Shown piece by piece: positions 7,658 through 32,490 of a stretch of DNA of 64,000 nucleotides (positions are counted from its first letter, which is position 1; each line of letters opens with the position of its first letter). The notes beneath the pieces are model-generated. The model saw nothing but the letters and a program-made list of their open reading frames with translations, had not been told where the DNA came from and did no database searches. Source of the DNA: Spirochaetales bacterium Spiro_07 (GTDB lineage Bacteria > Spirochaetota > Spirochaetia > Treponematales > Treponemataceae); contig LVBI01000013.1 in assembly GCA_001603145.1 (NCBI GenBank), positions 1-64,000 on the forward strand, read 5' to 3'. Made by a program: the position numbers and the translations under genes.

Positions 7658-10225
7658 TTGTTTTCAAAAGATTTTTCCAGGAAGATTTCAATAGGACGTT
7701 ATAGAAACAAAACATATAAACATTTCATAAATCTGATAAAAACGGCTGTAATTCTGCTTGCTGTACTGCTTGTCGTTTCTTGTGGCGGAGGCGGAGGCGG
7801 CGGTGTAGTTTCATTTCAGAATGGACAACAGATACACAACGGCGGCGATTCAGGCGGCTGGGGCAACGGCAACCAGACCGGTGGCGGTTTCGGCGGTGGA
7901 GCAATTCAGAGCAGCAATCTTCTTATAAGTCAGATGGCCGCCCTTAACGGTATTTCAAAAGTAGAAATACATCTTAAAATAAACGGTGTTGACCAGGAAG
8001 TAATAGTTGCGGACGCAACGACAACAACCGATGTCCTTCCAAAAATTTCTGTCGGCGACAAAGTTTCCGGATACGCAGAAATATTTTTGCCGGAGGGTGA
8101 AACGCGTAGAGCCGATCTTGATGAAACCGAAATTGCACTTTCAAATACACTTAAATTCAAAGTTCCGTATAAATATAGAGCTCTTGATGCACCAGACGGA
8201 AGTACAGTAGATACCGGCACATATTTTGCAAGAGACGGAATTAACCTCTCGTTACATACAATCACACCAATTACAGGATGGAAATGTCTTAATGACAATA
8301 CCCGCCATATGGGCAGTCTTGTTGCAGGCGTGCGCGGTGACATAACACTTGTACCTCTATATGGCAGTGGAGAAGGTTTGAATGCCGTACCGAGCAAGCC
8401 CGTACTTTTTGCAAAACCAGACGCTTCATTCAATGATACGGCTACGCTGACCATATCCGGCGGTTCCGGCACATATATTGTAACGCCTGACTCTTCAAGT
8501 GCAAGCTTAATTGACTGTACAGGTTCCGGCTCATCTTGGACAGTTTCAATTAAGACTGATACAGCACTTGGAGCAACCGGCAAAGTTTGGTTTGCTGATA
8601 ATACAGCTGTAACTATAAACGTAACAGATAGTATAAGTGGCGAATCTGTAAACGCCAGCCTTACGCTCAAGAACAAGTATACACTTCAAATTGGTTATAG
8701 TGCCGATGTCTGGCCTAATACGCCTCTTGAATTCGATGCAGGTAATACATTCAATTTTTCTAGTGCAGACACATCTGGTTTTAGTCTGCCTTCAGGCCAA
8801 CAGATTGTGGCATATACAGATCCAAATACAGCTACCACATACAAAGCGACAGACAGCATAACTTTCAGTGATGCTTTAGGCAGAAGGGAGATTTATCTTG
8901 GTTCAAGAGTTGACTTTGCTATGACTGTTACCGGCGGAAAGGGCGACGGGGCAGCTCATACCGGTACGGCAGCAGACCCGTATATCCTTAAATATAATGG
9001 AACAGATGATACGGATGAAACAAAAATAACCGTTACGGTCACCAGCAATATCGGCTCTATTATTGCAAGAAATGCAGATATAACAGGAAAATTGACAATA
9101 GGTCATCCTGGTAGTACTACTGCAACGCAATATATCACAATTTATAAAACTGCTCTCGCAGCAACTGCCATACCGGCGGCGGGTTTGACGTATCAGATAG
9201 TAGTACGTGACTATCAGGAAGGTGTACCCGGAGCTGCTGATAATGATGCTTACTTGTACGCTTCAAAGACATTCTGGGTAAAGATACCGCAGCCGGAATT
9301 TACCGTTTCATTCAATACTGGTACTGGTGGCAGCACTGCGCCATCTGCCCAGACAATAACTTGTGGTAGCTATGCAACAGCACCAACTGCCAACCCGACA
9401 AATTCAGATACGTCTCTTGTTTTCGGCGGCTGGTACACATCAACTAATGGTGGAACTACGCTCTCTTCAACAGCGTATAACTTCGGTACAACACCTGTTA
9501 CAGAAGATATTACGCTTTACGCAAAATGGCTGCACACCAACTTTACGGGAACTGCTGCGGAATTTCTTGCTGCGGAATTTGTACCAAACAATACTGCAGC
9601 ATCTTCGTATACTGTCACGATTACTTCTGCTACCCCTAATGAGCTTTCAAGCATAGGAAAGGCACTTGGCAAATCGTCAGATTCACATTATAAGGGTGTG
9701 TATGTCAGCCTTGACCTCTCAGGATGCGGTGCAACATCAATACCTGCTTGGGCTTTCGCTGCATTAGACAATCTTTCTAGTCAAGCCGGCTCTGATATAG
9801 CAACATACCTTACGGGCGTCACCCTTCCGAGCGGAATAACAAGCATTGGACGAGCTGCGTTCTACGGCTGCGCAGGTCTTACAGGTTCTTTTACTATTCC
9901 AAGCACTGTGTCCGTAATAGAGGACTCTATATTTAACAATTGTACAGGCATTACAGGGTTGACTATTGCGAACGGTGTTCAGAAGATAGGCGGCTATGCA
10001 TTCGAAAATTGCACAAGTCTCACAGGTACTATTGTCATTCCCGATTCAGTTACTGAAATCGCCCCTGGTTCGTTTCATGGATGTACCAATATTGCTGATT
10101 TTAATGTAACTGGAATATGGGACGCACACTGGCTTGAAGCTACAGGTTCCATAACGACTGCAAACATAGCGCTTGATAAAGCGAAACTTTTGAACACCGG
10201 TTACTACTATATCCGCCAACCATGA
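7658..10225 (+). CDS. Large surface lipoprotein with Listeria-Bacteroides and BspA-type leucine-rich repeats
   Basis: An 855-residue predicted lipoprotein. The basic N-terminus and hydrophobic stretch end in a lipobox (LLVVSC, Cys about 42), followed by a poly-Gly/Asn spacer. The middle is Thr/Ser-rich and beta-like without a family I recognise. One Listeria-Bacteroides repeat (VSFNTGTGG ... FGGWYTSTNGG ... ITLYAKW) is followed by LRR_5/BspA repeats (IPSTVSVIEDSIFNNCTGI, VQKIGGYAFENCTSL and related units). Such proteins are usually surface adhesins. No ATG fits: the start is taken as TTG at 7658 because AAAGGAG lies 6 nt upstream; a TTG at 7595 lies inside the palindrome. Many ATA and ACA codons set it apart from neighbouring genes, and related repeats flank it, suggesting acquisition. 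Confidence 0.8.
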   Translation: MFSKDFSRKISIGRYRNKTYKHFINLIKTAVILLAVLLVVSCGGGGGGGVVSFQNGQQIHNGGDSGGWGNGNQTGGGFGGGAIQSSNLLISQMAALNGISKVEIHLKINGVDQEVIVADATTTTDVLPKISVGDKVSGYAEIFLPEGETRRADLDETEIALSNTLKFKVPYKYRALDAPDGSTVDTGTYFARDGINLSLHTITPITGWKCLNDNTRHMGSLVAGVRGDITLVPLYGSGEGLNAVPSKPVLFAKPDASFNDTATLTISGGSGTYIVTPDSSSASLIDCTGSGSSWTVSIKTDTALGATGKVWFADNTAVTINVTDSISGESVNASLTLKNKYTLQIGYSADVWPNTPLEFDAGNTFNFSSADTSGFSLPSGQQIVAYTDPNTATTYKATDSITFSDALGRREIYLGSRVDFAMTVTGGKGDGAAHTGTAADPYILKYNGTDDTDETKITVTVTSNIGSIIARNADITGKLTIGHPGSTTATQYITIYKTALAATAIPAAGLTYQIVVRDYQEGVPGAADNDAYLYASKTFWVKIPQPEFTVSFNTGTGGSTAPSAQTITCGSYATAPTANPTNSDTSLVFGGWYTSTNGGTTLSSTAYNFGTTPVTEDITLYAKWLHTNFTGTAAEFLAAEFVPNNTAASSYTVTITSATPNELSSIGKALGKSSDSHYKGVYVSLDLSGCGATSIPAWAFAALDNLSSQAGSDIATYLTGVTLPSGITSIGRAAFYGCAGLTGSFTIPSTVSVIEDSIFNNCTGITGLTIANGVQKIGGYAFENCTSLTGTIVIPDSVTEIAPGSFHGCTNIADFNVTGIWDAHWLEATGSITTANIALDKAKLLNTGYYYIRQP

Positions 10226-22803: not shown

Positions 22804-24945
22804 CTACGAATTGCGTCTTACGACAAATTCTTTGGGCTGGTCACTGTCAAAGATGAGCGCTTTTTTCATCTGCTCAAGGTAAAAGAATTCCTGCGCCCTA
22901 GACGGTTGCTCCGTCTGTTTTCTGCGCTGCCATGTGCCGTCGCTGCAAAGCTCAAATGATTGCGCCGTGTCTGCAAAATATGCGCCCAGCGCGTCTTTTA
23001 GCTGCTTAACAAGGTCTTCTTGCACAACCGGAAACATAAGCTCAACACGCCGCTCAAGGTTGCGCGGCATCCAGTCTGCGCTTGAAAGATAAAGCTCTTC
23101 GTCGCCGCCGTTCTGAAAATAGAAAATGCGCTCGTGTTCCAAATATCTGTCGATTATGCTTACAACCTTGATGTTTGCGCTCATGTTTTTTACGCCGGGC
23201 ACAAGCATACAGATGCCGCGCACATTCAGCAGAATATTCACACCGGCGTTGCTCGCTTCATAAAGCGCGCGGATAATCTCTTCGTGGCCAAGACTGTTCA
23301 TCTTTGCCATGATTAGCGCGCTCATTCCGCGCCTTGCATGCTCTGTTTCGCGCTCAATCATCGCAAGAAGCCGCGTCTTTAAGTCAATCGGCGCCATCGC
23401 AAGCCGCTTCATCGTCTGAATTGAAGAATAGCCCGAAATCATGTTGAAAAACACAGTGGCGTCGTTCGCAATTTCAGCTTTGCTTGTAAAGAGCGAAAAA
23501 TCTGCATAAGTTCTTGCTGTCTTGTCGTTGTAGTTGCCTGTCGAAAGATGCACGTAGCGCTTAATGCCTTCGCTTTCGCGGCGCACCACAAGCAGCATCT
23601 TTGCATGAACTTTAAGGTTTGCAATGCCGTAAACAACGATAACGCCTGCGCGTTCAAGCTGCGTTGCCCAAGAAATGTTGCGCTCTTCGTCAAAACGCGC
23701 TTTAAGCTCAACAAAGGCCGTAACATGCTTGCCGTTGTGCGCCGCACGCTCAAGCGCCTGCACCACAGGCGAATTTCCGCTTGTTCTGTAAAGCGTAATC
23801 TTGATTGCAAGCACGTCAGCGTCATCAGCCGCCAAATTCAGAAAATTCACCACAGGGTCATAAGATTCATACGGAACATGAAGCAACTCGTCTTTCAGCT
23901 TGAGCACATCCCACGGCGAATTCCGCAAAAGGCTTGAAGTTTTGAAATGTTTCCATTGCGGATATTTGAACTCTGACGCGGCGTCTATGCTGCCAAGCTC
24001 GGTGAGAAAGCCCAAATCGACAAGTCCGTCAACCTCGTACACGTCTTGTTTTTGAAGCTTGAGCCTGTCTGTCAAAGCTTTTTGAATTGATTGGCTGGAA
24101 CTGTTCGTCATGATGCGGACGATGAACGAATTTTGCCGCTGTTCAAGCACTTCTTCCATTGCCTGAATGAAGTCGTTGCTGCGGTCTTCGTCAACCGCAA
24201 AGTCCGCATCGCGCGTAATCTTAAAGATGAGCGTTTCTTCAACAGAAAAGCCCGGAAAAAGGTGCGTGCCGAAAGTCTGAACAACGTCGTCAAGCGTGGT
24301 GAACATTCGCAGGTTTTCAGAATTTTCCGCTGAATCTTCCGGCAGCCAAACTATGCGGCCTATGCTCGAAGGAATCTGCACAATGGCGAGCGGCTCTTCT
24401 TCAAGCGGGGCAGCACCGAGCAGCATGTTCGTTTCTTTGTCTTCGAACATCGGCTTAAGCAAAAACGCCGCATGAAGGCGCAAGTTTGAAACATGCGGAA
24501 ACATTTCGGTTGAGCTTGTGCGTAACGGCGTTAGCAAGGGGAAAATCTCGTTGAGAAAAAGCTTTTTCAAGTAATTGTGCTGCTTTTCGGTGTAATCGTT
24601 CCGGCTTATATATTTGATGCCGCACTGCGGAAGCGCGGGCAAAATTTCGTTGTTGAAGCAGCTGTACTGCTGCTTTAAGATTTCGTGCACGCGCTTTGAA
24701 ATTGCGTCAAGTTGCGCGCTAGCCGTCAGCTCAGAAATGTCTTTCCATTCAGGGTTCTTGCGCTGCTGCCGCTTTAGGCTTGCAACCCTCACCATGAAAA
24801 ATTCGTCAAAATTCGAACTGACTATGCCTAAGAATTTTACGCGCTCAAGGAGCGGCACGTCTTTGCGTTCCGCCTGCGACAGTACGCGCGCGTTGAATTC
24901 AATCCATGAAAGTTCTCTGTTAAAAAAAGTGTATTTCTTGGGCAT
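22804..24945 (-). CDS. ppk1: Polyphosphate kinase
   Basis: A 713-residue PPK1 of normal length that reversibly builds polyphosphate from ATP. The four domains are in order: an N-terminal helical domain (FFNRELSWIEFNARVL), a head domain, and two phospholipase-D-like catalytic domains. The phosphorylated histidine is expected in KVHAKMLLVVRRE, the second conserved histidine in YVHLSTGNYN, and the C-terminal motif in SSADWMPRNLERRVE. It is the last gene of the glycosidase-ppx-ppk unit, 27 nt after ppx. Having synthesis and breakdown enzymes together implies joint control of polyphosphate stores. Confidence 0.94.
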   Translation of the reverse strand: MPKKYTFFNRELSWIEFNARVLSQAERKDVPLLERVKFLGIVSSNFDEFFMVRVASLKRQQRKNPEWKDISELTASAQLDAISKRVHEILKQQYSCFNNEILPALPQCGIKYISRNDYTEKQHNYLKKLFLNEIFPLLTPLRTSSTEMFPHVSNLRLHAAFLLKPMFEDKETNMLLGAAPLEEEPLAIVQIPSSIGRIVWLPEDSAENSENLRMFTTLDDVVQTFGTHLFPGFSVEETLIFKITRDADFAVDEDRSNDFIQAMEEVLEQRQNSFIVRIMTNSSSQSIQKALTDRLKLQKQDVYEVDGLVDLGFLTELGSIDAASEFKYPQWKHFKTSSLLRNSPWDVLKLKDELLHVPYESYDPVVNFLNLAADDADVLAIKITLYRTSGNSPVVQALERAAHNGKHVTAFVELKARFDEERNISWATQLERAGVIVVYGIANLKVHAKMLLVVRRESEGIKRYVHLSTGNYNDKTARTYADFSLFTSKAEIANDATVFFNMISGYSSIQTMKRLAMAPIDLKTRLLAMIERETEHARRGMSALIMAKMNSLGHEEIIRALYEASNAGVNILLNVRGICMLVPGVKNMSANIKVVSIIDRYLEHERIFYFQNGGDEELYLSSADWMPRNLERRVELMFPVVQEDLVKQLKDALGAYFADTAQSFELCSDGTWQRRKQTEQPSRAQEFFYLEQMKKALIFDSDQPKEFVVRRNS

Positions 24946-24972: not shown

Positions 24973-26502
24973 TCAGTGCAAAATTACTTTATAGCCGAAA
25001 ATGTTCTCAAACAGGTCGGCTTTTTCGGCAAGCGCATTGCGTTCAAGCGTTGTGTTGAAGACTTGATTGACCACAATATGCATCGCCTCGTCTTTAAGCT
25101 CAATCTTAAAGTCTTTGATTCTCTGCGTGTGGCCGCGGTCAAGCGCGTCTGCAATGCGCAGAATGGCCGCAAGCTTTTGCACGGTAATTCTGTCTTGCGG
25201 CGGCAGCGCGTAAAATTTGGTGTCGGTGGGACGTGGCGGCGCACCTTTGTGGTAACGCGCAACATTTGACACAATCGTCATGTCGTCTTTGCTAAGACCG
25301 AAAATCTCTGAATTTGAGATTATGTAAAGGCTGTGCAGCTCGTGGTTCTGGCTTCTGATGAAAGTGCCCGAATCGTGCAGAAGCGCCGCAACTTCAAGCA
25401 GCAGACGTTCGCGCCCTTCAAAGCCAAGCTCGTCCTGCAGCTTGTCGTAAAACTTGAGCGCAGTCGCCCGCACATATTGGGCATGTGCTTCGTCAACCTG
25501 AAATTTCCGGCAAAGGTTGAGCGCAGACGCAATTACTTGGCTTGCAAAATTTGCTTGCAACGCTTTGTCTGGCGCTGTGTACTTGCTTGCGATTATTCCT
25601 TCGCGTATTGAAGCTTTTACGACGAGAATCTCTTCTGCACCGGTCAAGTTCAAGAAAAGCTGATACGTGAGCAGGTTTATCGTCAGCGCGCGCGCCTCTG
25701 TGTAAGGCAGCTTGAAATGCGCAATACATTCATCAATCGAATAATTCTGAAGCTCCGTTACAAATTCTTGAAAGTCGGCGCGGCTTATAATCCAGCAGTT
25801 GTCTGAAATGATTCTGCCTATCTGGTTAGCCACAAGCTGCGCTTCTTGGCCGGTCGCAATAAACTGGTGTACTTTGGCAAGCGAAAGCTCTTTATTAAGG
25901 TTTACGCCTGTGTTGTTGATGAATTCTTCGAGGAAGCGGCGCGCGTCTTTTTCTGTGCCCATCATAGACTTGATGTGCTGCTCGATGATTACGGTGCCGA
26001 GGCGCAGACTGTGCACGGCCACCATTTCGCCGCGCTGCAGCAGCATAAGCTCTGTAGAGCCGCCGCCTACGTCCATGATGATTGAATTCGACTTTTTGAA
26101 GCGCGGCATCTGCCCTTTGAGCGCATTGAGAACGGCTATGTACATAAGTCTGTTCTCTTCAATGCCGTCGATGATTCTTACGGAAAAGCCTGTCTTGATC
26201 TTGATTCTGTCGAGCACGGCGTCGCGGTTGCGGGCTTCGCGCAATGCGCTTGTTGCAACAACTGTAGTGTGCGCGCCGTCAATCTGCCATGTCGAAATTT
26301 GCTCTTTAAACCTGTTCAGAATCTGAAGGCACTGGATAAGCGTTTCCCTTGAAACGGCTGACGTCGTAAAAACATCCCAGCCGAGAGCCGCCGGAAGTTC
26401 AGAATAATCAATAAAAGACCAGCTGTTGTTTTCAGCAATTTCTGCAACAGCCAGCCTTATGCCTGTTGAGCCAATCTCAATAACGGCTTCAAGTTTTGTC
26501 AT
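24973..26502 (-). CDS. ppx: Ppx/GppA-type exopolyphosphatase with HD-like C-terminal domain
   Basis: A 509-residue enzyme. The N-terminal actin/hexokinase-like phosphatase half (AVIEIGSTGIRLAVAEI, the VGGGSTELML phosphate loop, GTVIIEQ) is followed by a C-terminal HD-like helical half (AALLHDSGTFI ... NHELHSLYIISNSEI). It removes terminal phosphate from polyphosphate or hydrolyses pppGpp; the two roles cannot be separated here. The start is the ATG that overlaps the stop of the upstream glycosidase gene by 4 nt (ATGA). A longer frame of 39 codons reaches back into that gene without a ribosome site. Confidence 0.88.
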   Translation of the reverse strand: MTKLEAVIEIGSTGIRLAVAEIAENNSWSFIDYSELPAALGWDVFTTSAVSRETLIQCLQILNRFKEQISTWQIDGAHTTVVATSALREARNRDAVLDRIKIKTGFSVRIIDGIEENRLMYIAVLNALKGQMPRFKKSNSIIMDVGGGSTELMLLQRGEMVAVHSLRLGTVIIEQHIKSMMGTEKDARRFLEEFINNTGVNLNKELSLAKVHQFIATGQEAQLVANQIGRIISDNCWIISRADFQEFVTELQNYSIDECIAHFKLPYTEARALTINLLTYQLFLNLTGAEEILVVKASIREGIIASKYTAPDKALQANFASQVIASALNLCRKFQVDEAHAQYVRATALKFYDKLQDELGFEGRERLLLEVAALLHDSGTFIRSQNHELHSLYIISNSEIFGLSKDDMTIVSNVARYHKGAPPRPTDTKFYALPPQDRITVQKLAAILRIADALDRGHTQRIKDFKIELKDEAMHIVVNQVFNTTLERNALAEKADLFENIFGYKVILH

Positions 26503-27938
26503 AGCTTGTCTATAAGCATAGAGCATTTGCCGGAAGGAATCGGCAATGTCTTTTTCTTTTCTCCGAGAATGTTGATTGTAAAGTAATAGAGCTTTTCGCT
26601 TTCCATGTGAATTTCCCAACCGCGCTGGCTCTTGTTAGAGAGAATCGTAATGAGGTTGCGCTTCAACGAAAGGTTTTCGATGCCCATTATTTCAAGATTC
26701 GGAATAATCCAGTCGACAGTTTTTCTCGGCAGGCTGATGTAAAGCCCGATAACGTTTTCAATCATCAGCGCGATTGTAGAAAGACCTGTGTAGTGCATGT
26801 AACGCTTCTTCGGAAAGTCGGGGTTCGTACTTGATTTTGCAGGGCCGTCTTTGACTGGCGAATAAGCTTCCCAGAGGTCGCCTTTCGTGTGGCCGTCAAG
26901 CAGCAGCGCGTCAAGAATCTGATAAAGATGTCTGATTGAACATTCGCGCGCCAAATCCCATTTCTGGTATTTTTCAAGCCCTTTGATTACGACGAACGTG
27001 AAAGGCGGGTAAACGCTTCCGCAGAATTCGTTGCCGTCCGGGTCAAAATGCGGGTCATCAGCTGAAAGGGTCGGGAACGGATGGTTCGTGCCGAAAGTTT
27101 CTGGGTTTGTCAGATGCTCTACGAGCTGGTCTGCCTTGTCTTCGTTCGGAATTTCAGCAATCATCGGCCAGAAACCGGCGATTGTCTTTACAGGCAGCCG
27201 CTCGCCGTTTTCGTCAAGGTCGTGGTAGAAGCCTGTTTCAGGGTTCCACATGAGCGAGTTGATGCGCGTCTTGAGCGAGAAGTACATGCGCTTGTACATA
27301 AAGCTCAAGTCTTTGTCGTTGAGAATGTCGCCCATTGCAGACATGTAAAGCGCGTTTACGGCGAGCGCACTGTTGAAGTCTACAAGATACTTCGCACCTT
27401 CACGCGGCGAATTCGTCATCGTGGTGGCGGCTACAGGACAAGTGTAAAGACCGTTTTCGCATTTAAAGGTCTTCTCAAGCCATGTCATGTATTTCTGCAT
27501 AACAGGCATAACTTCTTTTATGCGCTTCTTGTTTGCAGACTTGTGGTAAAGGTTGTACTCAACCCACGCGAACAGAGGAATGCCCACGCCTTCGGGGTTT
27601 TCCTTTGAGATTACAGGTTCGCCTGTCTTTGTGTTATACTTCCAGCGGATTGCGCCGCTTTCTTCCTGCTTTGAATACAGATAGTCCAAGTTCTGGTTTG
27701 CAGGAAAATTCCTGTTTGAATAGACGAGGAAGAACGATGCAAAGATAGACTCAAACTGGTCGATTATAAGCTCACCGTTTTGCGGAAACAGAAAAAGCTC
27801 AGATCCGATTTTGTCTTGCGCCGGCTCGCCGGTCTTAGGATCTTGCCAAAAGTCCTGCAACCATGACCATGCCTTATCATAAATATCAACAAAATCTTGA
27901 TCATAAAAATGGACTTTGGGAAAATCGCGCTTATTCAC
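26499..27938 (-). CDS. Trehalase-like (alpha/alpha)6-barrel glycoside hydrolase
   Basis: A 479-residue soluble protein without a signal peptide. Tryptophan/acid-rich stretches are typical of GH37/GH63/MGH1-like (alpha/alpha)6 barrels (WKYNTKTGEP, LFAWVEYNLYH, FNSALAVNALYMSAM, LMWNPETGFYHDLDENG, KTIAGFWPMI, GDLWEAYSP, HYTGLSTIALM). The acidic residues in these blocks are catalytic candidates, but the substrate (trehalose, other alpha-glucosides or mannosylglycerate-type compounds) is not decidable. It starts at GTG with GGAG 5 nt upstream. It leads an operon with ppx and ppk, which suggests a link between stored carbohydrate and polyphosphate reserve metabolism (inference). Confidence 0.72.
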   Translation of the reverse strand: MNKRDFPKVHFYDQDFVDIYDKAWSWLQDFWQDPKTGEPAQDKIGSELFLFPQNGELIIDQFESIFASFFLVYSNRNFPANQNLDYLYSKQEESGAIRWKYNTKTGEPVISKENPEGVGIPLFAWVEYNLYHKSANKKRIKEVMPVMQKYMTWLEKTFKCENGLYTCPVAATTMTNSPREGAKYLVDFNSALAVNALYMSAMGDILNDKDLSFMYKRMYFSLKTRINSLMWNPETGFYHDLDENGERLPVKTIAGFWPMIAEIPNEDKADQLVEHLTNPETFGTNHPFPTLSADDPHFDPDGNEFCGSVYPPFTFVVIKGLEKYQKWDLARECSIRHLYQILDALLLDGHTKGDLWEAYSPVKDGPAKSSTNPDFPKKRYMHYTGLSTIALMIENVIGLYISLPRKTVDWIIPNLEIMGIENLSLKRNLITILSNKSQRGWEIHMESEKLYYFTINILGEKKKTLPIPSGKCSMLIDKL

Positions 27939-28139
27939 AGAGGCTCCTTTTCAGCTTGCAGTTGAACGTTTTTTATTAGTCGTCTTGCACAAACAGGCAG
28001 ACGCATGAAAAATCAAAAATAAAACAGAATCTCATAACTATATCATAAATTTGCAAAAAATAGTATATTTTTCAAAGAAAAATATATAAACTTTTGGCAT
28101 CTCTAATGGTCAAAAGCCGAAAAACGCAAAGAAGGGCAC

Positions 28140-30515
28140 ATGTTTCAATCTCATATTTATCTTGAAGTCAGAATTTTGATTTCAACACAGAAGAAACCAT
28201 TCATTTCAGGCGAAAAGCCTGCGCTTGACGGCGAAGTCTGCAAAAAGGTCTGCTCTCTTCTCAATGCTTTCAGTTGCAGCATTTTAAAGACTGTGCATTA
28301 CGAGCGTTACACCGCCAAGCTGAATGTGCCCGAATCAGCCGGTTTTTCAGGGCTTTCCGTTAAAGTCGGCGAAAAAGGCGTTGTGCCGATTGAGTTTCAC
28401 AGACGCCAGAAACTTATACGCATCAAAGAAGTGCGCATAGAAGAAGATGCGGGCAGGCTTACGCATTCAAACAACGTTTCAAAGATGGACTACACATGGG
28501 CGGGCTGTGCAAGCGTGCGCATAAAGACAGCCGCCGACTTTGAGCTTGGCGAAGAAGCGGAGCTTTTCTTGAACGAGCTTCGCCGCCGCATTCAGTATAT
28601 GCGCCTTGTTGAGAACGTGCCTGTAGAAACGCTTATAAGGTGCAACGCCTATGTCGCGCTTGCACGCTACCCAGAAAAGCCCGATTATTACGTAAAGCTC
28701 AGAAACCTCAATTCGTTCAACTTTGTAAGAAAGGCCGTAAACGCCGAGATTGACCGCCAGGAATCTGTGCTTTCTTCGGGCGGCACTGTTGAATCTGAAA
28801 GCAGGTTATGGAACGAGCGACAGAATTTGACAGAAAGCTATAAGCCGTGGTCGCCTGAAATTTCTCAAAGCAGGCAGCTTGTGCTTCTTGCTGATGCTGA
28901 ACCTTTTGACATGAGCGAAATTCTTGACGGGCTTTCTGACGGCGGTTCTTCTGAAATTTCAGCTGAAACTGAAATTGAGCAGCCGGCGGAGCGGTGCAAA
29001 CGGCTTTGCAGCCAGTATGGGCTTATCAAGGTTCACGCCGAATTTATTTGCGATGACAAGGCGCGCGCCGACTTTTTTGAAAAAGCTGTTGCAGCCGGTG
29101 CAGACCCAATAATGACGGCGCACTGGCTTACAAGCGAATTCATGAAGCTGCTCAAGTGGTCGGGCTCTTCGATTCAGCAAAGTTCCGTTACGGCAGAGCG
29201 GTTTGCCCGCGTAATGGTTCTTCTGAAATCGGGCGAGATTCACAGCAGCATTGCAAAGCAGCTTCTTCAGCATCTGCATGAAAAGGGCGGCGAGCCGGAC
29301 GAGATTCTTGCACAGAACAACTGGAAGCAGATTACAGACAAAGACGTGCTGCTTCCGCTCGTGCAAAAAACTATAAACGAAAACCCCGAAGAAGCAGAAA
29401 AGCTCCGCAAGGGCGAGATGCCGCCGCTTGAATTTTTGACCGGCCTTATAATGAAGCAGACTGACGGGCTTGCTTCTCCGCTTGTGGTCAAGGGGCTGCT
29501 GAAAGAAGAGCTTCACATCAATATAGTCTATGTAATTTCAATGGGCGGTTCTATTTGCGGCCGCCGCACAAAAGACGGCGCGGTCATCGCGGCAGACGGG
29601 CGCATCTTGAAGTCTATGCTGCAAGACATAGACCCTTCGATTCATTATCAGGTTGTGCAGCTTGGCCGCATGTTGAGCGAAGAGCTTGAGCCAGCCGACT
29701 GGGCTGTGCTCATTGCAGAAATTGCCTCGCTTATAGGCACTGGCACGGCAACCGGCATTGTCGTTGCGCACGGAACGGACACGCTTTCTTATACGGCACC
29801 GCTGCTTTACTGGCTTTTTTCTGATGCGGAAGTGCCGGTCGTTGTTACGGCTTCTTCTAAAACTAGCGATGAATCTTCTGAAGCGAAAGAGAATCTTCAT
29901 TTTGCCGTGGAAACTGCGTGCAAAGAAAAGCAGGGCGTGTTTGTCGCTTTCGGCGGCAAGCTGCTTTCGCCGCTCAACCTGAAATTTGAGCGGCCTTCGC
30001 CGGACGGTTTTTCTAACTGGAACATGAAGACACCGCTTTATACTTGCGGGGCTGGGCCATTGAGCGGCTTGTTCAACGGCTTTTTAGATGCAGACGAATT
30101 CGTTATGCGCCAAGTTTTGCGCGAAGCAGCGAACCGCATGATTGTTTGCCGCGTTTATCCGGGGCTTAGAGCAGAAAGCTATGTTCAGCTTATAGAAAAC
30201 GGAATAACCCACATTTTTCTTGAATTGTACGAAACAGGCACGGCAAGTATGCGTAACGGCGATTATTCGCTCAAGCCGCTTTTGACAAAGGGCCGAAAGC
30301 GGGGCTGCACGTTCTTCTGTACCTCGCAGCAACAGAGCTTGCTAGACTTTTCGGGCTATACGACCAGCCGCCGCATGTGGCGCGAAGGTGCTGTGCCGAT
30401 GGGGCGACTGACGACAGAATCTGCTGTTGCGCTTTATTTTGCGGCAAGCCTTGTGTCAGACACAAAAGAAGAGCTGAACCAGTGCATGGAAGCATACGCC
30501 GAGCTTTTTGAATAG
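28140..30515 (+). CDS. GatB-like domain fused to an asparaginase domain
   Basis: A 791-residue fusion. Residues 1-458 follow the amidotransferase GatB along its whole length: IEEDAGRLTH, LIRCNAYVAL, KLRNLNSFNFVRKA, and the tail with IMTAHWLTSEF, SGEIHSSIAKQLL and LIMKQTDGLASPLVVKGLL. Residues 461-785 are an L-asparaginase fold: VISMGGSIC (Ser471 where the usual nucleophile is Thr), HGTDTLSYTAP (Thr546, Asp547) and a Lys near 595. The GatB part lacks the zinc cysteines, the GLEVHVEL His/Glu pair (here YLEVRILI) and the YRYFPEPD block, so its kinase/transamidation site looks dead while the tRNA-binding tail persists. Archaeal GatD and GatE are the separate-chain parallel. It is monocistronic with a weak GAAGG ribosome site. 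Function unknown. Confidence 0.8.
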   Translation: MFQSHIYLEVRILISTQKKPFISGEKPALDGEVCKKVCSLLNAFSCSILKTVHYERYTAKLNVPESAGFSGLSVKVGEKGVVPIEFHRRQKLIRIKEVRIEEDAGRLTHSNNVSKMDYTWAGCASVRIKTAADFELGEEAELFLNELRRRIQYMRLVENVPVETLIRCNAYVALARYPEKPDYYVKLRNLNSFNFVRKAVNAEIDRQESVLSSGGTVESESRLWNERQNLTESYKPWSPEISQSRQLVLLADAEPFDMSEILDGLSDGGSSEISAETEIEQPAERCKRLCSQYGLIKVHAEFICDDKARADFFEKAVAAGADPIMTAHWLTSEFMKLLKWSGSSIQQSSVTAERFARVMVLLKSGEIHSSIAKQLLQHLHEKGGEPDEILAQNNWKQITDKDVLLPLVQKTINENPEEAEKLRKGEMPPLEFLTGLIMKQTDGLASPLVVKGLLKEELHINIVYVISMGGSICGRRTKDGAVIAADGRILKSMLQDIDPSIHYQVVQLGRMLSEELEPADWAVLIAEIASLIGTGTATGIVVAHGTDTLSYTAPLLYWLFSDAEVPVVVTASSKTSDESSEAKENLHFAVETACKEKQGVFVAFGGKLLSPLNLKFERPSPDGFSNWNMKTPLYTCGAGPLSGLFNGFLDADEFVMRQVLREAANRMIVCRVYPGLRAESYVQLIENGITHIFLELYETGTASMRNGDYSLKPLLTKGRKRGCTFFCTSQQQSLLDFSGYTTSRRMWREGAVPMGRLTTESAVALYFAASLVSDTKEELNQCMEAYAELFE

Positions 30516-30594: not shown

Positions 30595-32490
30595 TTACAA
30601 GCCTTTCTTGTAGGTTTCTTGCTTGTGCTCATACATTACGCTGTCGGCCTGATGAATATAGTCAATCAAGTTTTGGGATGATTTTGGGTCTGAAAGAATA
30701 TGTCCGGTGCTTATCGTGAGCGGATAAGCGAGCTGCATTCCTTCAACTTCGTTTTCAAGCTCTTTTGTAAGACTCTCTTCATAAGCCATTACGTCGTTTT
30801 CGTCTGTGCATTCGCCCACCGCAATAAATTCATCGCCGCCGTATCGTATTGCCACCCAGCCTTTCGGCATCAGCTCAAGGACTTTTGCCGCAACTGTTCT
30901 TATGGCAAGGTCACCTTGCAGATGCCCGAAATTGTCGTTTATATATTTCATGCGGTTTATATCTGCAAAGATAATCGCACATCTTCGGTTGTTCTTGTGT
31001 GCGTTTTCCAAAAGCGGAACGGCGTTTACTTCCATTCCAAAGCGGTTGTTCAAGCCTGTAAGCTGGTCTGTGTTAGAAATATCTCTGAGCGCGCGGTTCA
31101 TTTCATCAAGGCGGCTGTTGTTGCGGTATTGTTCCAGATTGAAATTCACCTGAAGCATGTAATGGTTGAGCGTTCTGTCTTTTATGCACTCAAGCGCATT
31201 GCTTGTAACGATGTAGCCGAAAATTTTGTCGTCGTAATGCATTGAAGTGAACGTGTATACCGACGGCTTGTCTTCTTTTTTATAGTTTGGAATAAGCTCT
31301 TTGCGTGTGAATTCGCCTTTGCTTTCTGCTTTTCCGTCTTTAACGGCCACAAGGCAGTTCATTTTTTCAGCATATTCAGTTTTTAGCGGGAACAATGCGT
31401 CTTTGAATGCTTTTTGCGCATTTTCGTCAATCACAAAATAGAACTCGCCGCCGCCAATGCTCTGATGCGTTGAATAAAAATTAATGAGGTTCTTCTGAAA
31501 TTCATCATAAGATGAGCAATTGAACACAGAAGTCGTCATGTCAGCTTCGGCAGTCTGAAACAAGATGTTTTCCATCTCTTTTTTATAGGCGTTTACACAG
31601 AAATCATGGCGGACTTCATCGGCTTCAGAAGTTTTTTTGCAGCCGCAGCTTTCGCCCATCACAAATTTTGAAGAAACGACAACATGGTCTTCTTTTGACG
31701 TGCCTTCAATCTGCTCGACAAGCTGCCACGCGGCAATGTAGCCGATTTTTTCGTAGTCTTGATAGACAGTCGTTATTGAAGGGTAGAATGTTTCCGCATG
31801 AGAGATTTTGTCAAATCCGGTGACGATTACATCGTCTGGAACGGATACGCCAATATTGTTCAAGCCGATGCAAGCGCCGATCGCGTTATGGTCGTTCGCG
31901 CAAATATAAGCGTCCGGCCGGTTGCCGCTTTGCCACAGCTCGATTGCATATTTAATGCTTGTAAGATATTCCCAGTCAGTGTAGCGGATGTTCTCTTCTT
32001 TCAGTTCAACTCCGTTGAGAGCAAGCACTTTTTTGGTTGTTTCAAGCCGTTCGATTGAGTCGGGGTGGTCTCTCGTTCCGGCCAAGAAAGCCGGATTTTT
32101 TATATGATGCTTTTGGACAAGATGCTCTACAAGCTCGTACATTCCGTCAGAGTTGTTTATGCCGACAAAGTTCAAGCCTTTATAGGGCATTCCGACGCTT
32201 ACGGCGCAGATTTTTTCTTTTATAAGCTTGTCTGCAATCCGTCTTGGTGTTTCTTCGGAATTCAGCATATTTGAGAATGTGATAACGCCGTCAAAATCTT
32301 TGAAGTCCGGCAAGTCAAATATGGAATCTTCGCCTATGTTGCGCACTTTGCTTCTGCCGTATGCGGCGTAGCTTAAAAAAAGGAAAATGTCGATATTAAG
32401 CTCATCCGTTACCGAGCGGATTCCTTTCAGAGCTTGTGTAATACTGATGTTGTTCCAGCCGTTTGCAAGTACGGCAATTTTCCTTTTCAT
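30595..32490 (-). CDS. Cytoplasmic sugar-sensor/GGDEF diguanylate cyclase
   Basis: A 631-residue soluble protein without signal or membrane segments. Residues 1-280 form a LacI-type periplasmic-binding-like domain without its HTH (IAVLANGWN, DGVITFSN, AYICANDHNAIGA, VIVTGFDKISHAETFYPSITTVYQD). A middle region of about 190 residues starts with ESCGCKK, and a GGDEF domain follows (about 465-630: DQLTGLNNRFGME, FADINRMKYINDNFGHLQGD, RYGGDEFIAVGE). The active-site GGDEF is intact, so it should make c-di-GMP from GTP. No RxxD inhibitory site is evident before it. A ligand, probably a sugar, seems to control second-messenger output directly in the cytoplasm. Confidence 0.85.
   Translation of the reverse strand: MKRKIAVLANGWNNISITQALKGIRSVTDELNIDIFLFLSYAAYGRSKVRNIGEDSIFDLPDFKDFDGVITFSNMLNSEETPRRIADKLIKEKICAVSVGMPYKGLNFVGINNSDGMYELVEHLVQKHHIKNPAFLAGTRDHPDSIERLETTKKVLALNGVELKEENIRYTDWEYLTSIKYAIELWQSGNRPDAYICANDHNAIGACIGLNNIGVSVPDDVIVTGFDKISHAETFYPSITTVYQDYEKIGYIAAWQLVEQIEGTSKEDHVVVSSKFVMGESCGCKKTSEADEVRHDFCVNAYKKEMENILFQTAEADMTTSVFNCSSYDEFQKNLINFYSTHQSIGGGEFYFVIDENAQKAFKDALFPLKTEYAEKMNCLVAVKDGKAESKGEFTRKELIPNYKKEDKPSVYTFTSMHYDDKIFGYIVTSNALECIKDRTLNHYMLQVNFNLEQYRNNSRLDEMNRALRDISNTDQLTGLNNRFGMEVNAVPLLENAHKNNRRCAIIFADINRMKYINDNFGHLQGDLAIRTVAAKVLELMPKGWVAIRYGGDEFIAVGECTDENDVMAYEESLTKELENEVEGMQLAYPLTISTGHILSDPKSSQNLIDYIHQADSVMYEHKQETYKKGL

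Follow-up and report, generated by a model that had tools for sequence, protein, structure and literature searches.

A spirochaete GatB joined to an asparaginase fold: most likely a repurposed pseudo-GatB, perhaps with an amino-acid sensor

What can be the job of a protein that begins as GatB, a subunit of the tRNA-dependent transamidase, and ends as an asparaginase? The question is raised by a gene in the stretch of 64,000 nucleotides analysed here (the window), which comes from Spirochaetales bacterium Spiro_07, a member of the Treponemataceae (contig LVBI01000013.1). A preliminary description of this DNA had reported the two-domain chain and proposed that it was either a one-chain analogue of the archaeal GatDE enzyme or a tRNA-linked asparaginase. 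Our analysis confirms the chain as a single join of a GatB-derived half (residues 1-458) and a class-1 asparaginase fold (residues 459-791). Pfam places GatB_N at residues 23-235 (E 2.7e-26; profile positions 41-250 of 277), GatB_Yqey at 311-458 (E 1.6e-36, so that the tRNA-binding tail is kept, as had been claimed), Asparaginase_N at 463-629 (E 1.6e-29) and, as a weak match under the cut-off, Asparaginase_C at 669-783. In an AlphaFold model of the protein (pLDDT 87.6, pTM 0.80) residues 1-459 match GatB structures with a Z score of 36 and residues 460-791 match class-1 L-asparaginases with a Z score of about 31. Most likely the protein is a pseudo-GatB put to a new use, one that binds tRNA and carries a pseudo-asparaginase, which would bind a ligand and perhaps act as an asparagine/aspartate sensor.

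Table 1. Features of the fusion gene and its neighbours (positions in the window; counts from the alignment of 105 fusions)
Feature	Position	Strand	Basis
gatB::asp fusion gene, type II, 791 aa, one intact frame	28140..30515 (28140-30512 plus stop)	+	ORF call, family homologues
Likely RBS (agaaggg), 3 bases 5' of ATG	28130..28136	+	sequence
GatB cradle-domain homologue, residues 1-240	28140..28859	+	Pfam GatB_N 23-235; structure match to GatB
Fast-evolving linker replacing GatB's YRYFPEPD block	28860..29069	+	dN/dS 0.18-0.40
Helical/YqeY tail, residues 311-458; tRNA-binding in GatB	29070..29513	+	Pfam GatB_Yqey; role from PMC4027206
Asparaginase-like domain, residues 459-791, most constrained part	29514..30512	+	Pfam, dN/dS, structure match
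Arg11, replaces GatB Mg-binding His (His 17/17 type I, Arg 88/88 type II)	28170..28172	+	alignment; yeast H36, PMC4027206
Arg99, replaces conserved GatB His (His 17/17 type I, Arg 88/88 type II)	28434..28436	+	alignment
Glu102, Mg-site Glu kept (105/105)	28443..28445	+	alignment; yeast E156, PMC4027206
Arg127, replaces GatB Mg-binding Glu (Glu 17/17 type I, Arg 86/88 type II)	28518..28520	+	alignment; yeast E186, PMC4027206
Asn169 (Asp 17/17 type I, Asn 87/88 type II)	28644..28646	+	alignment
Lys186-Leu187-Arg188 (type I: Glu-Ile-Lys), directly 5' of conserved NLNS, ATP-binding strand	28695..28703	+	alignment
Ser471, nucleophile position (Ala 80, Thr 12, Ser 11, Val 2 of 105; Ala 17/17 type I)	29550..29552	+	alignment, parsimony
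Ser513-Glu514-Glu515, invariant 105/105; matches archaeal GatD SED and Ser58-Gln/Glu59 substrate-binding pair	29676..29684	+	alignment
Thr546-Asp547 of HGTDT (98/105, 95/105)	29775..29780	+	alignment
Lys615, probable Lys162 equivalent (Lys 82, Arg 14, His 9 of 105)	29982..29984	+	alignment
Divergent glycoside hydrolase (PF22422, MGH1-like), neighbour common to type I and II loci	26499..27938	-	locus comparison
Ppx/GppA phosphatase, conserved type II neighbour, also near type I locus of G467	24973..26619	-	locus comparison
Polyphosphate kinase, conserved type II neighbour, also near type I locus of G467	22804..24945	-	locus comparison

The fusion was found in 63 of the 195 genomes of the window's family, in many genera and mostly at full length, with some copies frameshifted or cut at contig edges; its presence in dozens of independent genomes rules out an assembly artefact or a chance reading frame. 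An all-species genome scan returned only spirochaetes among its best 80 matches, carriers there including Treponema porcinum, Gracilinema caldarium and Brucepastera parasyntrophica, and a search of the phylum (393 genomes) found fusions in the window's class alone. Measured against two relatives 89-90% identical to it, the window gene has a dN/dS of about 0.07 (0.06-0.08), the value falling to 0.03 over the asparaginase half; this marks a maintained gene under strong purifying selection. Many Treponemataceae do without it and still have the glycoside hydrolase neighbour, so it is dispensable. A tie to that neighbour was rejected, the hydrolase being present in 190 of the 195 genomes with or without the fusion. 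Both active sites of the fusion have been rewired and yet the gene is strongly conserved in spirochaetes, which points to a probable new job, perhaps sensing. In the literature that we searched, mostly outside subscription journals, no paper describing a fusion of GatB with an asparaginase came up; the architecture may already be visible in database annotations.

An alignment of 105 full-length fusions separates 17 type I proteins, from other families of the Spirochaetia, and 88 type II proteins, from the Treponematales, with the window among the latter. Type I keeps all the GatB catalytic residues and has His11, His99, Glu127, Asp169, Glu186 and Lys188, as true GatB does; type II has, near-invariably, Arg11, Arg99, Arg127, Asn169, Lys186 and Arg188. 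Columns that tell the types apart at 90% or more number only ten; six of them (H11R, H99R, E127R, D169N, E186K and K188R) lie at or beside the GatB pocket, and none falls in the asparaginase half. In the yeast GatB homologue H36, E156 and E186 are Mg ligands and E34 and T189 contact ATP (PMC4027206); they correspond to R11, E102, R127, E9 and T130 of the window, where the His/Glu/Glu ligand set thus reads Arg/Glu/Arg. The roles of positions 99, 169, 186 and 188 are putative and follow from their location on the same conserved strands. Loss of the transamidase chemistry, which the preliminary description had judged likely, is supported, and the motif losses that it listed (VHVEL to VRILI, with the zinc cysteines and the YRYFPEPD block gone) are right for the window sequence. 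The zinc-cysteine motif is kept in 52 of the 105 fusions, so its loss in the window is lineage-specific.

The window protein resembles bacterial GatB in its fold, in the helical tail and in several ATP-site residues, and type I relatives score as true GatB: the three tested pass both GatB cut-offs, with 607-620 bits against an equivalog cut-off of 338, and most unfused GatB proteins of the class share 58-68% identity with one of the three. The window protein differs in falling below both cut-offs (233 against 338 bits for NF004012, 200.7 against 314.8 for TIGR00133), in having arginine for two Mg ligands and no zinc cysteines, in the absence of gatC and gatA from its neighbourhood and in its extra domain. 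A profile check of the N-terminal half, which had been suggested earlier as a way to refute its assignment, places it inside the GatB family.

Comparison of the loci shows how the two types are related. At type I loci a divergent glycoside hydrolase gene is followed by gatC, gatA, gatB::asp and aspS, and in related genomes a plain gatB that lacks the tail takes the place of the fusion in an otherwise identical order. At type II loci the hydrolase gene and gatB::asp adjoin, and gatC, gatA and aspS are gone. The fusion is the only GatB in each of the five type I genomes searched; type II genomes carry a second, ordinary GatB elsewhere, and the proposed search for gatCAB in the window genome found a canonical gatA-gatB pair on contig C4. 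In a FastTree GatB tree type II forms one clade (support 1.0) with a long stem that arises from among type I; the precise point of attachment is weakly supported (about 0.75). Type I shows no variation at the two positions that contact GatC (PMC4027206), and type II is relaxed there. Synteny, the single GatB of type I genomes, the tree and the relaxed GatC contacts together mark the window gene as a B subunit left stranded from an old gatCAB-aspS operon, and the descent of type II from type I is well supported by these comparisons. Some unfused GatB proteins sit within the type I grade, so the tail may have been lost, or gained more than once. The ordinary GatB of the window's family (C4:72196-74468, outside the window) groups with GatB from other spirochaete classes and not with that of its own class, which suggests displacement by transfer; taken with the missing GlnRS described below, this grouping suggests a transferred gatB and loss of glnS. 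In one complete type I genome (G377; L171) the gatA beside the fusion is split over two frames (about 8236-9425, minus strand).

The asparaginase half has the whole two-lobed fold of the cytoplasmic (type I) class-1 L-asparaginases, such as those of Pyrococcus and Thermococcus and E. coli AnsA, at 20-25% identity, and shares with them the HGTDT motif and a probable substrate-binding Ser-Glu. It is unlike them in that the catalytic threonine is replaced, mostly by alanine, and the lysine is variable, and the window protein lies below every NCBIfam asparaginase cut-off. The catalytic residues of EcAII are Thr12, Tyr25, Thr89, Asp90 and Lys162 (PMC8256714); the window has Ser471, Thr546, Asp547 and Lys615, and neither the window nor the family alignment has an evident counterpart of Tyr25 at the aligned loop. 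The equivalents of Asp90 and Lys162 vary across the family. Parsimony gives alanine as the ancestral state of the nucleophile column, with 11 changes in all and several regains of threonine or serine, one of them in the window. With alanine in most of the family Ser471 is probably a secondary change, and its interpretation as a leftover of an ancestral threonine was rejected. The preliminary description was correct that the window keeps HGTDT and has serine at the nucleophile position, and the doubt that it cast on asparaginase activity is supported; the tRNA-guided amide hydrolysis that it went on to entertain is weakened by the inferred alanine ancestor, the lack of a Tyr25-like residue and the variable Asp90 and Lys162 equivalents. 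Nine type II members (L037, L038, L098, L099, L101, L102, L104, L105 and L115) share Thr468, Ala471, Tyr547 and His615, so that the site is rewired in a way of its own.

Other parts of the asparaginase site are constant. The SEE motif aligns with the SED of Pyrococcus abyssi GatD, and the substrate-binding pair of asparaginases is Ser58-Gln/Glu59 (PMC9500103); E695, Q730-Q731 and E760 are invariant in all 105 fusions. The engineered asparaginases guinea pig T19A and BlAsnase T13A carry the Thr-to-Ala change found in most of the fusion family, although they are unfused laboratory mutants of active enzymes. Such Thr-to-Ala forms have been deposited with asparagine bound (titles of PDB 5dnc and 7c8x), and an alanine form is therefore able to hold asparagine. 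The invariant putative substrate-binding residues and these mutants therefore favour a ligand-binding pseudo-asparaginase.

These observations suggest a history in which a spirochaete gatB first gained a pseudo-asparaginase tail. This tail would bind asparagine or aspartate as a small amino-acid ligand and hydrolyse it hardly or not at all. Type I proteins serve as the catalytic GatB of a gatC-gatA-gatB::asp-aspS operon, and there the extra domain may tell the transamidase how much asparagine is available and so give tRNA-dependent asparagine synthesis a feedback switch. A feedback domain for free asparagine would be sensible in that context: GatCAB with a second AspRS is known to make asparagine on tRNA alongside AsnRS in other bacteria (PMC4206432), a pathway with which the type I operon and its second AspRS-like gene agree. 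In the Treponematales gatC, gatA and aspS have left the locus, another GatB is present, and the Mg/aminoacyl pocket was rebuilt in concert, His/His/Glu/Asp/Glu/Lys becoming Arg/Arg/Arg/Asn/Lys/Arg; strong constraint persisted on the asparaginase-like domain and the tRNA tail. The type II pocket may now hold an anion (a nucleotide, a phosphate or an acidic aminoacyl-tRNA end) without a metal, and the GatB that carries this sensor would have retired from catalysis, still bind tRNA and act as a regulator. We give an even chance to the account as a whole, that of an in-place descendant of a spirochaete gatB with its pseudo-asparaginase tail that is now a regulator with a sensor. More tentative, and somewhat short of even, is the proposal that fusion of a nucleophile-less asparaginase to GatB itself made the sensor, which the Treponematales freed from the complex as a stand-alone regulator responsive to tRNA and amino acid, its metal site turned into a cationic pocket. 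Against sensing, the several regains of threonine or serine at the nucleophile column are more than a pure sensor needs. Asp547 has become tyrosine in nine members, the gene is dispensable, and asnA is present in three of the five type I genomes tested and in nearly all of the window's family, all of which we count against the favoured account. With asnA in those three genomes, tRNA-dependent synthesis is not their sole route to asparagine; in the other two neither asnA nor a full asnB over the cut-off was found. A link between the fusion and the route of asparagine synthesis was rejected, as the near-universal asnA fails to sort carriers from non-carriers.

The main rival to the regulator with a sensor puts the new function in the rebuilt GatB pocket, as a metal-free Arg/Lys cluster. 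It would take hold of the acidic side chain on Asp-tRNA or Glu-tRNA, or else of a nucleotide, and by trapping or deacylating mischarged tRNA would provide quality control beside canonical GatCAB. The charge changes at six positions are concerted and nearly fixed, the ATP-site residues E9, T130 and N189/N191 are unchanged and the tRNA tail is kept, all of which would suit such a role. GlnRS, present in most other genomes of the class that were tested, was not found in eight Treponemataceae, the window genome included, and these should therefore carry Glu-tRNA(Gln); AsnRS was present in all genomes tested. However, three tested relatives with type II also have GlnRS, and type II is missing from many Treponemataceae expected to need Glu-tRNA(Gln). 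We know of no deacylase that shares such a pocket, which also counts against this reading, and the asparaginase half, the most conserved part, is left unexplained. We regard it as unlikely.

Next to the pseudo-asparaginase as a sensor stand two other views of that half. The domain could be a structural module, for dimerisation or an additional contact with tRNA or a partner, with no ligand role, and the variable catalytic residues and the assembly of class-1 asparaginases through intimate dimers (PMC8256714) agree with this; invariance of the putative substrate-binding S513/E514, together with E695, E760 and Q730-Q731, fits ligand binding better than a scaffold, and we think a purely structural part quite unlikely. 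It is improbable that the protein is a working tRNA-linked asparaginase or amidase, at least where position 471 is threonine or serine. Such a residue accompanies Thr546-Asp547-Lys615 in 23 of the 105 sequences, as it does in the window, and serine occasionally stands for the catalytic threonine in natural type II asparaginases (PMC9500103). Against activity, alanine is the commonest and inferred ancestral state, the Tyr25-like residue is lacking at the aligned loop, and clades close by, whose conserved residues are the same, carry Ala, Val or Tyr547.

A decaying relic is very improbable: loss in many relatives and frameshifts in three genomes would agree with decay, but dozens of invariant residues and strong purifying selection do not, and the dN/dS values contradict it. 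Least credible of all is the one-chain GatDE analogue, with the asparaginase half feeding ammonia to an amidating GatB half, because a slight preference of that half for the GatD profile over type I asparaginase (95 against 87 bits) and the common SED/SEE motif are set against a score far below the GatD cut-off (94.9 against 310 bits), the absence of the GatD N-terminal domain, an N-terminal half that is bacterial GatB and not GatE (233 against 49 bits), arginine at two of three Mg ligands in nearly all type II proteins, canonical GatAB in the window genome, and the use of the fusion in related families as the B subunit of an ordinary gatCAB operon, gatA adjoining, where every catalytic GatB fusion has alanine at the nucleophile position.

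The fusion is a clear example of how a core subunit of a translation enzyme acquired a dead-enzyme domain that probably binds a ligand, lost its operon partners and was repurposed, with the forms before and after both alive. If sensing is its role, type I would represent allosteric control of tRNA-dependent asparagine synthesis, for which we found no precedent in the literature searched, and Treponema and its relatives would have, in type II, a tRNA-linked amino-acid regulator of a new kind. Three type II genes (L052 in G018, L072 in G003 and L182 in G041) carry a frameshift within the asparaginase half, in each case where A is repeated in a run, at about residues 595 and 720; one lies in the complete genome of an isolate, Brucepastera parasyntrophica, and sequencing error, decay or slippage may be the cause. 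Beside the fusion in the window, at 30595-32490 on the minus strand, a gene joins a LacI-type periplasmic-binding-like sensor domain to a GGDEF diguanylate cyclase domain.
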